In this document: piece after piece, positions 2,241 through 15,647 of the stretch
How positions within the stretch are numbered: position 1 is the stretch's first letter
Layout of the letters: every line of letters begins with the position of its first letter
Virus record (IMG/VR): IMGVR_UViG_3300028025_005718
Location: 1 to 29,227 of that record
Strand: one strand, 5' to 3'
Length of the DNA: 29,227 nucleotides
DNA from: a virus
The notes under the pieces: model-generated
Databases searched by the model: none
What the model was told of the DNA's origin: nothing
What the model saw: the letters and a program-made list of their open reading frames with translations, nothing else
Program-made: the position numbers and the translations under genes

Positions 2241-2262
2241 GTTTAGTATAAATATACTAAAC
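2241..2262 (-). promoter_or_regulatory. Perfect palindrome containing a TATTTATA promoter-like site
   Basis: On the minus strand GTTTAGTATA, TT, TATACTAAAC forms a 22-bp inverted repeat with 10-bp arms. Its centre carries TATTTATA (2247-2254), the motif seen ahead of several other genes here. It overlaps the queE stop codon (2257-2259) and lies 18 nt before the 45-aa gene. There is no U-run after it, so an operator/promoter fits better than a terminator, though an RNA hairpin is also possible. Confidence 0.45.
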
Positions 2263-3030
2263 TTCCCTCTTGTCACCGTATGCAATAATATGATCTCGTC
2301 CTGAAAAATTATATGAATGTGCTGTACAGTAATCTAATACTATTGGGTACATCTTAATTAATTCTTCACGAGTATCACCAGCAGGCATAATCCATGTTTT
2401 ATGTTTTGGTATATTAAAGCGTTTTCTGAAAGCCTCAATCTCATACATTAATTCAGGTGTACCATCCCATACTGGTTTGAAGTGGTAGTTCTTATGGTAT
2501 GCTAATAATTGACGAATTGCATCATATTTTTCTCTATACTTGTTATGTTGATCAATCATTTTCTGATCTACAATTTTACCTTGTGGTGTTTCAACACCAA
2601 TTACTGGAATTGAATTAGAGAATTTTGGTGATAATGAAATAACATCAATACGATGATCAGTAATTAACGGATGAGATCCTTCAGTTTCGATAGTTACAAT
2701 ACCTTTTTTATCATGTAATGCTTTGAATAAATTAATAATTTCATTACACATTTCAGGATGCATTGTTGGTGAACCACCTGTTAACATTAAATGACTAATA
2801 TCCCAATTATCCGAAAAGAATTGCTTAATGTCGTTTAACGTATATTTACCTTTTTCTGGATGGATTGATGTATACCATGAATCACACCACCCACCTTCAC
2901 CAAAATAACATCTATGCGTACATCCTGTTGTACGAACAATGATATGTGGTTTACCAGCTAATGATCCTTCAGTTTGAACGCAACGATATACTTCAATTAC
3001 CGGTTGATTTTTAGTATAATCTAGTGCCAT
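2257..3030 (-). CDS. queE: 7-carboxy-7-deazaguanine synthase (radical SAM), QueE
   Basis: Converts 6-carboxytetrahydropterin to 7-carboxy-7-deazaguanine (CDG), the ring-forming step of 7-deazaguanine synthesis, using an Fe-S cluster and S-adenosylmethionine. Seen in 257 aa: the radical-SAM cysteines Cys37, Cys41 and Cys49 in GCTHRCYFGEGGWCDSWY, TGGSP (85-89), IETEG (114-118), SLSPKFSN (132-139) and a C-terminal FSGRDHIIAYGD. The cysteine spacing is C-x3-C-x7-C, wider than the C-x3-C-x2-C of textbook radical-SAM enzymes. QueE enzymes are known to vary here. The start overlaps the 77-aa gene by 20 nt. It stands with queC, queD and dpdA, so the product probably goes into phage DNA rather than tRNA. 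Confidence 0.93.
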   Translation of the reverse strand: MALDYTKNQPVIEVYRCVQTEGSLAGKPHIIVRTTGCTHRCYFGEGGWCDSWYTSIHPEKGKYTLNDIKQFFSDNWDISHLMLTGGSPTMHPEMCNEIINLFKALHDKKGIVTIETEGSHPLITDHRIDVISLSPKFSNSIPVIGVETPQGKIVDQKMIDQHNKYREKYDAIRQLLAYHKNYHFKPVWDGTPELMYEIEAFRKRFNIPKHKTWIMPAGDTREELIKMYPIVLDYCTAHSYNFSGRDHIIAYGDKREV

Positions 3031-3244
3031 TTTGTTTTTCTTTTAATTTTTGACGTTTAGCTAATTTTTTATCTACAACTACTTCTGCATTAATATCTAC
3101 CTCAACGGTTTTCTTATTTGCATCTCGTACTTTAGTTTTCCATTCGGCTTTAGGAGCAAATGTCCATCCATGTACTTTTACTTTTAGATCAGCATCTGCA
3201 TCTGATACTCTACGGATTTCACCGTCTTTTTTGATACACTTCAT
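3011..3244 (-). CDS. Small basic protein, unknown function, in the deazaguanine cluster
   Basis: 77 aa: MKCIKKDGEIRRVSDADAD, then VHGWTFAPKAEWK, then a lysine-rich tail (KKLAKRQKLKEKQ). The pattern of a short strand, R-V-S-D, a helix and G-W-x-x-x-P-K-x-E-W-K is one I associate with many phage genomes, without known function. The ATG overlaps the TGA of the 46-aa gene upstream as ATGA, and its own end overlaps queE by 20 nt, so it is coupled into the queC-queE mRNA. Whether it takes part in deazaguanine synthesis is not shown. Confidence 0.8.
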   Translation of the reverse strand: MKCIKKDGEIRRVSDADADLKVKVHGWTFAPKAEWKTKVRDANKKTVEVDINAEVVVDKKLAKRQKLKEKQNGTRLY

Positions 3245-3381
3245 ATTTTAAATTTTAATTTGATTAATTGTTGAATATAAGTAAGAAACTGCACATCACC
3301 AGCGAGTACAGACAAAATGTTAGGATGGGCGTCTCCACACCCACCTAACAAATGACTAATAATGTGTCTGATTTCTTCCAT
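3241..3381 (-). CDS. 46-aa protein tightly coupled between queC and the 77-aa gene
   Basis: Found by reading the queC downstream gap. ATG at 3381-3379 shares one base with the queC stop (TAATG), and its TGA at 3243-3241 overlaps the next start as ATGA. The frame is open for 46 codons: MEEIRHIISHLLGGCGD, AHPNILSVLAGDVQFLT, YIQQLIKLKFKI. An exact fit to both neighbours, with the same junction types used at ssb-uvsX (TAATG) and dpdA-queD (ATGA), is hard to explain by chance. The predicted protein is largely helical with one cysteine in a GGCGD turn. No family recognised. A TTTCTTACTTA element lies inside its 3' part. Confidence 0.7.
   Translation of the reverse strand: MEEIRHIISHLLGGCGDAHPNILSVLAGDVQFLTYIQQLIKLKFKI
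3278..3288 (-). promoter_or_regulatory. TTTCTTACTTA, near copy of the gene-end element
   Basis: Minus strand TTTCTTACTTA, one mismatch to TTTCTTAATTA, 33 nt before the 77-aa gene start and inside the 46-aa coding sequence. Weaker than the five exact copies because it is coding. Confidence 0.25.
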
Positions 3382-4244
3382 TATTCGGCGTGCTCAGCTA
3401 ATACTTGTTCAACGTGTGATTTAGCAACTTCCCAACTAACTGGGCCTGTTTCATCAGCATATGCAACCGGATCTTTAAGATTTAATTTAATAAACGCTTC
3501 AATACGCTCTACAGATGATGCTGATTTATAATCAGAATACCATACTCCATCATGTTGGATTGGTTTATAACTTGTATTAGTACGTTTATATATTTCTGGG
3601 AAATTTAAATTTATTAATCCTGAACATTTTAATCCATCTACGATTATATCAAATTTAGTGTTTTCTAAGTATGGAGTATAAACAGATACTAATTCTGAAT
3701 CCCAATTACCAATTTTAAATGCTTCAAAATCAGCATCGCGGAATTCTTGGCGACAATCAGGATAAATAGCATGATCACCAGCATGAATACCCATTGCAAT
3801 TACTACTGGTTGTTTATCTCCTTTAGTTGCAATTGATAATGCTACTGCTTGAATTAATGAAGCAAAAATTTTATTACGATTAGGTACAACAGTTTCTTTC
3901 ATGTTGTCTTGTTCGTAATGTCCTTCAGGTACATCATCCCCCCCTGTAACTAATGATGAATGAAGTAAATTTTGCAATCCATCTAATTTAATAATTTGAA
4001 AGTTTACCTTAGGATAGATTTCACCAAATTCATTAGATTCTGCACCTGCATGATAATTTCGAGCTGGGTTTGAGTTGATATATTCAACTAATGATGCGGC
4101 ACGCTCTAATTCTACTTTGTGTTTTTGACCATAATCAAATCCTAATGCTGTAACTTCATAGCCATTAGCTAATAAATGAAGTAATAATGTTGAGGAGTCC
4201 ATTCCTCCGGATAATGATAAAACTGCTTTTTTTGTACTAGACAT
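3381..4244 (-). CDS. queC: 7-cyano-7-deazaguanine (preQ0) synthase-like, QueC
   Basis: ATP-dependent enzyme family that turns CDG plus ammonia into preQ0 through an amide intermediate (ADG). Seen in 287 aa: PP-loop SGGMDS (12-17), GFDYGQKHKVE (35-45), the VVPNRNKIF block (119-127) and GIHAGDHAIYPDCRQEF (152-168). The region that should carry the four zinc-binding cysteines (E. coli pattern TCY...CGxCxxC) reads TNTSYKPIQHDGVWYSDYKS (222-241) and has none of them; Ser or Tyr stand there. The flanking family pattern (S-Y-K ... S-x-x-x-E-R-I-E-A-F) is kept, so this looks like a variant enzyme, not a broken gene. It may finish at preQ0 or stop at ADG. Stop overlaps the 46-aa gene start. Confidence 0.9.
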   Translation of the reverse strand: MSSTKKAVLSLSGGMDSSTLLLHLLANGYEVTALGFDYGQKHKVELERAASLVEYINSNPARNYHAGAESNEFGEIYPKVNFQIIKLDGLQNLLHSSLVTGGDDVPEGHYEQDNMKETVVPNRNKIFASLIQAVALSIATKGDKQPVVIAMGIHAGDHAIYPDCRQEFRDADFEAFKIGNWDSELVSVYTPYLENTKFDIIVDGLKCSGLINLNFPEIYKRTNTSYKPIQHDGVWYSDYKSASSVERIEAFIKLNLKDPVAYADETGPVSWEVAKSHVEQVLAEHAE

Positions 4245-4278
4245 AAAATTATAAAATATAAGATTGGAACGTATTAAT

Positions 4279-4503
4279 TTATTTAGCGGTTAGTTCCGAT
4301 AACCCCTTTACTACTATACTTGAAAAATCCTCACTATACAGGTGTATCCCGTTTGGATATTTTTCAGTTGGTTCAGTTTTTGAATATGGAATCTTCATTG
4401 CTTTAGCGAAAATATTAACTAATTTACATTCTCGTGGAGTTAATGGTTTAATTCCATGTTTAGTAACATACTGATTAATTGTACTCGTTTTTTGATTTTT
4501 CAT
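4279..4503 (-). CDS. Small hypothetical protein between queD and queC
   Basis: 74 aa, not recognised. The N-terminal half is basic and probably helical (TSTINQYVTKHGIKPLTPRE, then LVNIFAKAMKIPYSK); the C-terminal half holds NGIHLYSEDFSSIVVKGLSE. The short helix-turn-helix-like start could bind nucleic acid, but that is weak. The leader before ATG is AAATAAAAAGTT, the same type as several neighbours. A TTTCTTAATTA element and a TTTACAATGTAAA palindrome fill the 49-nt gap upstream, so this gene may begin its own transcript with queC behind it. Confidence 0.7.
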   Translation of the reverse strand: MKNQKTSTINQYVTKHGIKPLTPRECKLVNIFAKAMKIPYSKTEPTEKYPNGIHLYSEDFSSIVVKGLSELTAK

Positions 4504-4526
4504 AACTTTTTATTTGATTTAAACTG

Positions 4527-4539
4527 TTTACAATGTAAA
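4527..4539 (-). promoter_or_regulatory. Short palindrome TTTACAATGTAAA in the queD-downstream gap
   Basis: Perfect 6-bp arms around one base, 24 nt before the 74-aa gene start. It sits next to the TTTCTTAATTA element and a TATATTTA sequence. It could be an operator half-pair or chance in AT-rich DNA. Confidence 0.25.
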
Positions 4540-4541
4540 TA

Positions 4542-4552
4542 TAATTAAGAAA
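4542..4552 (-). promoter_or_regulatory. TTTCTTAATTA gene-end element (copy 1)
   Basis: Minus strand reads TTTCTTAATTA directly after the queD stop codon, followed by TATTTAC. It is one of five exact 10-mer copies (TTCTTAATTA), all on the minus strand and all at gene ends. Candidate promoter or mRNA-processing signal for the 74-aa gene and queC. Confidence 0.45.
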
Positions 4553-5032
4553 TTAAATAGGCATGTATTCCTCTTCGTATGAAGCTGAATTACGGCCATT
4601 TTCGAATACTTCTACTTTAGCTACTCTAACTCTGTAATGTGTTTCGTCTTGAACGAATTCATTGATCTTTTGAAATAAATACTCAGCAAAACGTTCAGCA
4701 CCAACGTAAGGTAAAATACGTAATTGAATAATTCCATCATCCTCCATTTGTTTAAATTGTTCTAAATATGGATCGTCTTCGGAAATAATTGTAGTATGAT
4801 CTAATAAATAATCGAACCATTGTTTTGGATTCATTCCATCAATATTACCGTTAGCACGTTTCATACCACCGAAATCCCATACCCAATTGCGTTCGTCTAA
4901 ATCTCCTTCAAAATCTACTTTAAAGGATATAGCATATCCATGTAAGAACCTACAGTGGGTTCCTTCTGCTCTCCATTGTCTAAATACAGTAGAGAATCCA
5001 TCAAATAATTTTGATGATTTGAATGTAATCAT
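4553..5032 (-). CDS. queD: 6-carboxytetrahydropterin synthase-like, QueD
   Basis: QueD turns dihydroneopterin triphosphate into 6-carboxytetrahydropterin, the substrate of QueE. Seen in 159 aa: FSTVFRQWRAEGTHCRFLHG (13-32), matching the family's F-x-A-x-H ... C-x-x-L-H-G-H block with nucleophile candidate Cys27; DFGGMK (53-58); LDHT (77-80); GAERFAEY (111-118); and VEVFENGRNSASYE near the end. Usual zinc ligands differ: the first His is Phe17 and HGH is HGY (His31, Tyr33); His26 may substitute. Its ATG overlaps the dpdA stop as ATGA, so the two are translationally coupled. An altered but family-typical T-fold protein; activity on the same substrate is inferred from context. Confidence 0.88.
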   Translation of the reverse strand: MITFKSSKLFDGFSTVFRQWRAEGTHCRFLHGYAISFKVDFEGDLDERNWVWDFGGMKRANGNIDGMNPKQWFDYLLDHTTIISEDDPYLEQFKQMEDDGIIQLRILPYVGAERFAEYLFQKINEFVQDETHYRVRVAKVEVFENGRNSASYEEEYMPI

Positions 5033-5823
5033 GATAAAAGTGTTCTAAAATGTTTAACGTTATATAATACATCAGAAATTTGTTGGTCAGATAACTTCTG
5101 ATCAAAATATGTTTCTAACTTTTCTTTAGGTTTATCAAGTAATACTTTATCTGGGTATTTACCGTGTTTTAAACCATAAATAACTGGATTAGATGTATCG
5201 ATTGTTTTAATGAAATCGTATTCTTTACCTTTATAATTAGAGAATTCATTAGGTAATGTAGCACCTAATAAGTGATGGTGAATCGTTTTATTAAATCCAT
5301 TTAATGATGGTAGCATATTAACAAATTTAATACGTCCAGTCATTAAACTTAATAACTCGTTTTGGTGTTTATATAATTCCTTAAAATAAACTCCAGCATG
5401 ATTTAATGCAATATGTGTATAACCTAACTCAGCAAATTTGCTATATGTAAGCATTGCATCCGATACTGTTTTAGCTTGTACTACTGCCATTAAATTAGTT
5501 GTAGATGGTATTTTATCTACATAATAATCAATCCATTTCTTAGCGTTTTTAACTGTGGTTTGAGGATCATTCCATGCATCAGGAACGATGAATATACTTG
5601 GCTTAATATCATTGATTTTCTCGAGTAAATCTTCGATTGTATGTGATACTCCTTCAAATAAACCATTATCCATGATAATTAAATCACCACGTTCAGATGC
5701 GTTTTTAAAAAATTCATAGTACTGTTTATTTTCTAATAAATGAGGTAAACAATAATGATAGTCATTAAATTTTAATGACTCATTTAATAGATCTAATGGT
5801 ACTTCGTGTGAAATAAGGGCCAT
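5029..5823 (-). CDS. dpdA: DpdA-like transglycosylase for 7-deazaguanine insertion into DNA
   Basis: DpdA proteins are relatives of tRNA-guanine transglycosylase that exchange guanine in DNA for a 7-deazaguanine base. Seen in 264 aa: LIIMDNGLFEG (48-58; Asp52 at the TGT DSGGFQ position), FIVPDAWND (78-86), MAVVQAKTVSDAM (112-124, Gln116), THIALNH (136-142), HHLLGATLPNEFSNY (183-197) and IKTIDTSNPVIYG (205-217, Asp209 at the TGT nucleophile position). It is shorter than bacterial TGT (about 370 aa) and lacks that enzyme's zinc cysteines, as is usual for short phage DpdA proteins. It overlaps queD by ATGA. Substrate DNA rather than tRNA is inferred from size and context. Confidence 0.85.
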   Translation of the reverse strand: MALISHEVPLDLLNESLKFNDYHYCLPHLLENKQYYEFFKNASERGDLIIMDNGLFEGVSHTIEDLLEKINDIKPSIFIVPDAWNDPQTTVKNAKKWIDYYVDKIPSTTNLMAVVQAKTVSDAMLTYSKFAELGYTHIALNHAGVYFKELYKHQNELLSLMTGRIKFVNMLPSLNGFNKTIHHHLLGATLPNEFSNYKGKEYDFIKTIDTSNPVIYGLKHGKYPDKVLLDKPKEKLETYFDQKLSDQQISDVLYNVKHFRTLLS

Positions 5824-5825
5824 AA

Positions 5826-6320
5826 CTATTTATTATATTTTTTTAAGTATTCATAGAATTCTAAAGTAGTACCATCGAATTCTCCTGCTAATTCATTAAT
5901 TAAATCTATACGAGACAACTTATCAGGTCCCAAATGTCTAAAATCTCCTGCTAGTTCATTTACTAATTCTGACCATATTTTTGGTTCTTCTTTATCGAAT
6001 GCGTTCATTAATTTATGATAACGATCGTATTGTTGCTTTTCAATTACTTCTCTACGATTCATCCAAGCTTCATGAGATGGGTATTTAGAACGTTCAGTTT
6101 TTAATCGATCGTCTAATAACCACAACTCATAAAACGCTTGTTGTCTGTAATCAGATATTTCAAAATCTCCGTTTTTAATTCGTGTTTCTAGTGGAGTATA
6201 TTTATGCATTGGTTGACGTATTTTAAAACGTCTCCAATAATAAAATAAGTTAAACTTCGCTGGTTGGAACTTCTGTTCCACTATCGTCTGAATGTTCTTC
6301 GGGTAACGGGATTTTTGCAT
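5826..6320 (-). CDS. Hypothetical protein (164 aa), start uncertain
   Basis: Not recognised. Basic, aromatic N-terminal part (FNLFYYWRRFKIRQPMHKYT), then mostly charged helices (LLDDRLKTERSKYPSHEAWM; VIEKQQYDRYHKLMNAFDKE) and two similar segments LVNELAGDF and LINELAGEF. With ATG at 6320 the gene overlaps the 68-aa gene by 71 nt in another frame. A second ATG at residue 38 (6209, MHKYTPLETRIKNGDF) would remove the overlap and leave 127 aa. The sequence just before Met38 looks protein-like, so I keep the longer form with doubt. It ends 2 nt before the dpdA start and so precedes it on the same mRNA. Confidence 0.65.
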   Translation of the reverse strand: MQKSRYPKNIQTIVEQKFQPAKFNLFYYWRRFKIRQPMHKYTPLETRIKNGDFEISDYRQQAFYELWLLDDRLKTERSKYPSHEAWMNRREVIEKQQYDRYHKLMNAFDKEEPKIWSELVNELAGDFRHLGPDKLSRIDLINELAGEFDGTTLEFYEYLKKYNK

Positions 6321-14342: not shown

Positions 14343-15647
14343 TTATTCTATTTCTGCGTAATTTTGTCCAGATTTCGTGGAATAATTAAATTTTAATATC
14401 GAAGTTATGCTATCTAATAAATTTTCCGACGAATCATAATCCAATAATATAGAATCGTATGTGTATAATATTATTTTTGTTTTTTTATCTTTAAGTAAAT
14501 AATCCACAACAGAAAACTGAACTATATTGAATATTGTTTCTGTATTTTGAACAATATAATTAAGTAATTTTTGTGGTGTTGGATTTTCAATCATTTCTTT
14601 AGTGAAACGTTTACCGAATTGGGTACCAATTGCACCGTTTTCTGATTCATTCCATAATTTGTTTGTATAATTATATACTTGGGAGAAAAATGGTTTGTCT
14701 TGGAATTCTTTTCTAATACCTCCATACAATTGTTGAAAAACTAACTCCTTAATTGTTTCTGGAGTTGATCCTGGGAATTGTTGAGATAAATGCTCATATA
14801 ACTTTCCATCATTATTATGAATATATCCTGATAGATTAGATATAATATGAGGGTGGTATGCTTTAAAATCTATTTCAATTAATTTATCATTTTCAGGAAT
14901 AAAAGCCGCACGTTCTCCATTTGTTTTATTTAAAGCCGCAAAATTAATACCATTAAATGCATTTGATGGTCTACCAGTTAATGTATTTAAATTATATTGC
15001 GTGTATATTTTACCTTTAGATATTGAAAATTTAGGATTTGGTAAATCTTTAAAATGTTTAATAAATAGTTCTTTATCTAATTTAATACCTTGTCTTTCAA
15101 TATTAAAAAAGAATGGAGCAACATAATCATTTAAAAAATCATATTCACGTATATTTTCACTTATTTTATTGATTGTCTGTTCAATATGATCATATACATT
15201 TTCACATTTTTCATAATGTTTTGCTATAGGAATTAATACTGATGGTTCTTCTGTGTAATATTTACGTTTAAAATCTGTTTCAACTTTTGACTCGTATTGT
15301 TCAACATTTATTGTTTGGAGATTATGATATGAACTAATCAGTTGCACATCAATTAGTCGAGAAAGCAACGTAGGAAAATGGTGTAATACCGCTTTATTAT
15401 CTAATGTGTATACTCTGTTAACCTTAGATAGTTTATCGAGTATATCCGTAGATTTTAATGATAATGATTCGGAATGATTAACACATAAAATGTATCCTTT
15501 ATGTCCTTTTATCCACCGAACATAAATTAAACTAATATTTTGTAAAATAGGATGATAGTTTTCATTCGTAGGAATAATATGAATAAATACATCCTCACCA
15601 ATATGTAACTGATCTAATTGATCTTGTCGTTCAATAATATAAAACAT
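14343..15647 (-). CDS. polA: Divergent family A DNA polymerase
   Basis: Replicative polymerase candidate, 434 aa. The C-terminal half aligns by eye with family A: LNTLTGRPSNAFNGINFAAL (220-239), GERAAFIP, motif A LIEIDFKAYHPHI (256-268, catalytic Asp260), the O-helix pattern K300-x3-F304-x3-Y308-G309, and motif C LYTYDSILLDY (394-404, catalytic Asp398). Two usual active-site positions differ: motif A has His265 where E. coli Pol I has Glu710, and motif C reads YDS instead of HDE. The N-terminal about 170 residues look like a decayed 3'-5' exonuclease fold (LDNKAVLHHF; LIDVQLISSY) without clear metal ligands. T4 itself uses a family B polymerase, so this is a different replisome mix. Confidence 0.85.
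   Translation of the reverse strand: MFYIIERQDQLDQLHIGEDVFIHIIPTNENYHPILQNISLIYVRWIKGHKGYILCVNHSESLSLKSTDILDKLSKVNRVYTLDNKAVLHHFPTLLSRLIDVQLISSYHNLQTINVEQYESKVETDFKRKYYTEEPSVLIPIAKHYEKCENVYDHIEQTINKISENIREYDFLNDYVAPFFFNIERQGIKLDKELFIKHFKDLPNPKFSISKGKIYTQYNLNTLTGRPSNAFNGINFAALNKTNGERAAFIPENDKLIEIDFKAYHPHIISNLSGYIHNNDGKLYEHLSQQFPGSTPETIKELVFQQLYGGIRKEFQDKPFFSQVYNYTNKLWNESENGAIGTQFGKRFTKEMIENPTPQKLLNYIVQNTETIFNIVQFSVVDYLLKDKKTKIILYTYDSILLDYDSSENLLDSITSILKFNYSTKSGQNYAEIE

Follow-up and report, generated by a model that had tools for sequence, protein, structure and literature searches.

The window analysed here, a 29,227-bp virus record that is an unclosed fragment, very probably carries a phage-borne 7-deazaguanine DNA modification module, in which a DpdA is predicted to perform the base swap. 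The system is of a known kind, with variant enzymes, and some of its unusual parts recur throughout a large group of aquatic phages, most of them uncultured. In the mechanism that we propose, FolE (encoded off the contig), QueD and QueE would convert GTP into 7-carboxy-7-deazaguanine (CDG), which a QueC lacking the zinc motif would amidate to ADG and then dehydrate to preQ0. DpdA, a transglycosylase with the fold of tRNA-guanine transglycosylase (TGT), would act on phage DNA after its synthesis and put the 7-deazaguanine base in place of guanine, and the modified DNA would be protected from restriction enzymes that read guanine. In phage CAjan, DpdA is required for base insertion, and DNA containing bases of this kind is protected from restriction (PMC6884629).

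The co-directional arrangement described in the initial annotation was borne out, since dpdA, queD, queC and queE are four intact open reading frames (ORFs) on the minus strand, together spanning positions 2257-5823 (Table 1). The junctions that it had listed can be read directly in the sequence: dpdA and queD overlap in an ATGA (5032-5029), queC meets the 46-aa gene in a TAATG at 3381, and the 46-aa and 77-aa genes overlap in an ATGA (3244-3241); moreover, the 77-aa gene and queE share 20 bp. Along the minus strand, thioredoxin, nrdB and nrdA are followed by a 68-aa ORF, the 164-aa gene, dpdA, queD, the 74-aa ORF and queC, and then by the 46-aa and 77-aa ORFs, queE, four small ORFs and thyA, whose end lies 5 bp from the contig edge. 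Order and spacing of the cluster are preserved in 8/8 records of the window clade, and hence the arrangement is not due to chance. Rfam and tRNA scans gave no matches.

Table 1. Features of the que/dpd cluster in the window
Feature	Position	Strand	Description and basis
dpdA	5029..5823	-	264-aa DNA-guanine transglycosylase; barrel of the TGT type that lacks the zinc site of TGT; AlphaFold2 mean pLDDT 93.9; Foldseek TGT 3.1e-9, DpdA 7ui4 2.4e-8; VIA Z 17.3/17.1; homologues CP220 gp056, immuto DpdA, phiST
queD-like 6-carboxytetrahydropterin synthase	4553..5032	-	159 aa; PF01242 8.5e-15; phrog_2389 2e-39
queC-like 7-cyano-7-deazaguanine synthase	3381..4244	-	287 aa; PF06508 1.7e-36
queE-like 7-carboxy-7-deazaguanine synthase (radical SAM)	2257..3030	-	257 aa; phrog_2076 3.4e-47; PF04055 5.7e-8
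46-aa microprotein, HxxGxCGxxH	3241..3381	-	found in 76 fetched loci
77-aa basic protein	3011..3244	-	found in 48 fetched loci
164-aa helical protein directly upstream of dpdA	5826..6320	-	39 loci; AlphaFold2 pLDDT 82.8
74-aa ORF between queD and queC	4279..4503	-	unconserved

The dpdA protein gave no significant match in Pfam, NCBIfam or PDB (phmmer and profile search), and its sequence matches only PHROG families of unknown function. With hhalign, E. coli TGT aligns weakly, albeit with the region of the VVQ motif in register, while only a DSGAF-like stretch aligns with the DpdA proteins of phages 9g and Mufasa8. It follows that the identity of the protein rests on fold and context. The structure search suggested by the initial annotation recovered the TGT/DpdA fold and not an unrelated one: for the AlphaFold2 model, built from 47 sequences of the window and the loci, the best Foldseek match in the PDB is the TGT of Z. 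mobilis, and the crystallised DNA preQ0 insertase DpdA (7ui4) ranks tenth. VIA-align superposes the model on TGT over 233 residues at 3.4 Å and on 7ui4 over 222 residues with an rmsd of 3.2 Å (scores in Table 1), and the best named viral model matching the structure is that of phiST.

The protein presents its motifs in the order found in TGT, namely MDNG (D52), VPDA (D82), VVQ (Q116), HHLLG (H184) and DTSNP (D209). Residues D52, D82, Q116, H184, G187, E193, D209, T210 and S211 are invariant in the 47 dpdA relatives, and all of them are retained in the homologue of phage CP220. In the model, D52, D82, Q116 and D209 are located at the ends of strands, as are the catalytic residues of TGT; on the basis of motif order and strand positions, and not of superposed coordinates, they are the putative counterparts of TGT D102, D156, Q203 and D280. 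One dpdA relative (L096:6001-6771) contains an in-frame stop, attributable to a mutation or to an assembly error.

At least 456 dpdA relatives occur in IMG/VR, usually with queC, queD and folE adjoining. Among isolate phages, tblastn returned 28 records, all below 60% identity, belonging to Firehammerviruses (about 35%), Flavobacterium immuto phages (34%) and Cellulophaga phages (25%). The immuto homologue carries the annotation DNA guanine transglycosylase, and CP220 gp056 (35% identity, hhalign probability 100, E 7e-52) is annotated as hypothetical. The genes found near dpdA differ by clade: queC, queD and queE in 8/8 records of the window clade; queC in 67/77, queD in 50/77 and folE in 34/77 of the middle clade, within 6 kb; folE in 73/81 and queF in 70/81 of the immuto clade. 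The middle clade features a different QueE (L046:9224-10054, about 276 aa, weakly related), swapped inside an otherwise conserved cluster. In the dpdA tree, CP220 sits on a long branch that joins the immuto clade and not that of the window, which leaves the subfamily boundary unsure. An enzyme of the CP220 kind was reportedly named DpdA3 by Cui et al. in 2023, and the subfamily replacing guanine completely is, we presume, DpdA3. Since CP220 encodes a homologue of the window DpdA and the DNA of CP220 and CPt10 has 100% of its dG replaced by dADG (PMC8306585), the window enzyme probably belongs to the subfamily that replaces guanine completely, and its resemblance to CP220 gp056 would suggest that nearly all G in the phage DNA is exchanged.

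For the pathway upstream and downstream of these enzymes, the checks for FolE and for amidotransferases or reductases were run on close relatives of the window. The folE gene is present in 6/8 of these records; whenever it shares a contig with dpdA, it lies 10 to 22 kb further downstream. Only the window and two short contigs lack it, the window because the contig ends before its position. No enzyme that would modify the base further was found: QueF, formyltransferase (Formyl_trans_N) and the Gat domain (GATase_6) are missing from the long close-relative contigs, while the same searches are positive in immuto or 9g, and the YaaA family (PF03883), a candidate for the conversion of dPreQ0 to dADG, is missing from 17 records. 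The absence of QueF, Gat domain and formyltransferase leads us to predict preQ0 or ADG, and a published scheme places phages with this gene content in the group predicted to carry one of these bases (PMC6884629). A PRA-PH or MazG-like nucleotide pyrophosphohydrolase lies close to folE in a relative from the window clade (L031:18684-19178), in immuto (L012:11282-11806) and in phiST (L014:4585-5172); it could perhaps hydrolyse dGTP or pterin triphosphate.

It is unlikely that the final base is instead a further derivative, such as dG+, dPreQ1, formyl-preQ1 or dCDG. The sister immuto clade, with QueF and formyltransferase beside dpdA, and the fragmentary nature of the window would fit such a product, but the long close-relative contigs lack all three modifying functions, and the presence of QueC counts against a pathway stopping at CDG. 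As to the choice between the two predicted bases, the evidence points two ways, toward dADG through CP220 and its homologous DpdA, and toward preQ0 through immuto, which has the nearest QueC among isolates and where QueF downstream implies that this QueC makes preQ0. We consider preQ0 rather more likely. The proposal of the initial annotation, that preQ0 or a related 7-deazaguanine occurs in the phage DNA, is therefore the best reading of the DpdA fold, of the pathway genes completed by the FolE of the relatives and of the lack of further modifiers.

A second alternative is that the genes boost the queuosine pathway of the host, with preQ0 feeding tRNA modification and the DpdA-like protein acting on RNA or being dispensable. 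Such a role has been proposed for some phages that carry preQ0 genes without dpdA (PMC6884629), and a tRNA TGT tops the Foldseek ranking. However, translational coupling ties the TGT-fold gene to queD, hundreds of phages carry it together with the pathway, QueF is absent from the close relatives, and the CP220 homologue belongs to a phage with fully substituted DNA. Furthermore, the dpdA protein contains a single cysteine, so that the zinc site CxCxxC...H of tRNA TGTs is absent. PF01702 does not match it either, but the same model misses the DpdA of phage 9g, and its silence is thus uninformative about DpdA. We consider the queuosine explanation improbable.

Returning to DNA modification as the preferred reading, three enzymes of the pathway show metal-site motifs that differ from the canonical ones and go beyond what the initial annotation mentioned. 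Canonical QueC features SGGxDS, YxQxHxxE, VPxRN, YPDC, an essential Tyr and the zinc motif C(x)8CxxCxxC, according to a 2026 study (PMC13329287). In the alignment with E. coli QueC, the window protein has the first four motifs and the essential Tyr189, but the zinc motif is absent, with all four cysteines replaced, and the region reads as a conserved TNTSY...SDYKSA-SVER. The zinc motif is missing in 73/73 distinct phage QueC relatives, which keep the catalytic signature, and SDYKSA-SVER is present in 68 of them; the QueC proteins of CP220, 9g, Mufasa8 and E. coli retain the zinc motif. We rejected the possibility that the zinc-less form is phage specific, because it is widespread in cells: among the 80 nearest cellular relatives, two have the motif and 78 are without it but keep the catalytic signature. 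The zinc-less ones include proteins of archaea from the Poseidoniales (often with folE, queD and queE alongside), of Pirellulaceae and of the isolates Cysteiniphilum litorale and Facilibium subflavum. In loci L253-L332, genomes of marine Poseidoniales and of Pirellulaceae commonly have QueC of the zinc-less lineage.

In QueD, aligned with the E. coli enzyme, histidine and cysteine are adjacent (HC...HGY, versus the canonical H..C...HGH); compared with the canonical zinc triad H16/H31/H33 and catalytic C27, positions H26, C27 and H31 align and H33 is replaced by a tyrosine. HGY occurs in 84/85 relatives. QueE features CX3CX7C versus the canonical CX3CX2C, with the three cysteines kept and a cluster loop longer by five inserted residues than that of the solved QueE 5tgs; CX3CX7C is shared by 54/65 relatives. 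The loss of all four QueC zinc cysteines and of one QueD zinc histidine could be read as a module in decay with inactive relics, but this is very improbable, given that the replacement motifs are themselves conserved, that all other catalytic motifs are kept and that the zinc-less form is the sole full-length QueC, with TGT also present, in 12/12 sampled cellular genomes (mostly draft assemblies), which indicates that it is very probably active and probably makes preQ0.

The suggestion that the interleaved small ORFs are accessory factors fared unevenly: it was rejected for the 74-aa ORF, of which none of the fetched loci holds a relative, while the 46-aa and 77-aa ORFs are conserved. Searching with the HxxGxCGxxH motif alone retrieved 25 loci of the 46-aa family, 20 of which carry que/dpd genes, many ending in a 4-nt ATGA overlap with queE; the other five adjoin glycosyltransferase-like genes, so the link to que/dpd is strong, not exclusive. 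A longer HxxGxCGxxH microprotein, with glycosyltransferase-like neighbours and no que genes near, occurs in L230, L231, L232, L240 and L243. No match to the 46-aa protein was found by tblastn in isolate phages. The family is conserved at the amino acid level and its third codon positions are free, for which reason we rejected a conserved RNA element behind this ORF. The 164-aa gene lies on the same strand upstream of dpdA, at most 1041 bp away and often adjoining, in 39/39 loci, a sample that was drawn around dpdA and whose co-location figure is to be read accordingly. Its helical model has no significant match in the PDB, and we regard the protein as a candidate DpdA partner. It is tempting, if doubtful, to hypothesize that this aquatic phage group replaces all guanine by means of a variant set, in which the zinc-less QueC lineage (also found in marine Poseidoniales, planctomycetes and some gammaproteobacteria), the QueE with enlarged loop and dedicated small partners, that is, the 164-aa DpdA neighbour and the queE-coupled 46-aa microprotein, would aid complete substitution.

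The description of the phage as T4-like stands in part. The window encodes a contractile tail sheath, a gp19-like tube (weak), gp32, UvsX and a DnaB-like helicase, but the nearest isolates for the cluster are Flavobacterium immutoviruses. No family B polymerase was recognised in the 29,227-bp fragment. In the replication region, a 434-aa ORF (14343-15647) without Pfam or PHROG match resembles, judged by eye, a shortened and diverged family A DNA polymerase. A ferredoxin-dependent bilin reductase is located between the que cluster and thyA in six close relatives (L002:13414-14512; records G001-G004, G007 and G008), adjoined by a heme oxygenase in L002, and is absent from the window and two relatives; phage pigment cassettes of this kind are already known (PMC11480375).

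Compared with known systems, the immuto cluster (NC_055915) is alike in DpdA (34%), QueD (63%), QueC (59%, also zinc-less), CX3CX7C-family QueE and FolE; different from the window and its long close relatives, it has QueF and formyltransferase beside dpdA and probably yields a preQ1 derivative. The Campylobacter Firehammerviruses CP220 and CPt10 share the gp056-type DpdA and encode FolE and QueC, but CP220 has scattered genes, a canonical zinc QueC and a family B DNA polymerase. Cellulophaga phage phiST shares QueD (64%), the QueE family, FolE and the distant DpdA (25%); QueC was not found in it, and its base thus cannot be preQ0 by this route. Enterobacteria phage 9g (dG+; DpdA1 with Gat-QueC) has the preQ0 pathway and a DpdA with TGT-like catalytic order, but this DpdA is unrecognisable by sequence and its Gat-QueC fusion bears the zinc motif. 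The tRNA TGTs have fold and motif order in common with the dpdA protein, which, however, is 13% identical to TGT, about 100 residues shorter and devoid of the zinc site.

With these results, the family of DpdA enzymes that is linked to complete replacement of guanine, so far seen in a few isolates, comes to include uncultured phages of aquatic origin by the hundreds. The 2019 survey put some Campylobacter dADG phages among those without DpdA (PMC6884629); the homology of CP220 gp056 to dpdA answers this remark, as well as the hypothetical label, and makes gp056 the candidate DpdA of these phages. Two small protein families are now available as candidate partners, and the zinc-less QueC shows that not every QueC conforms to the published signature. 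Complete replacement of guanine would make phage DNA difficult to digest and perhaps also difficult to sequence, a point of relevance to viral surveys.
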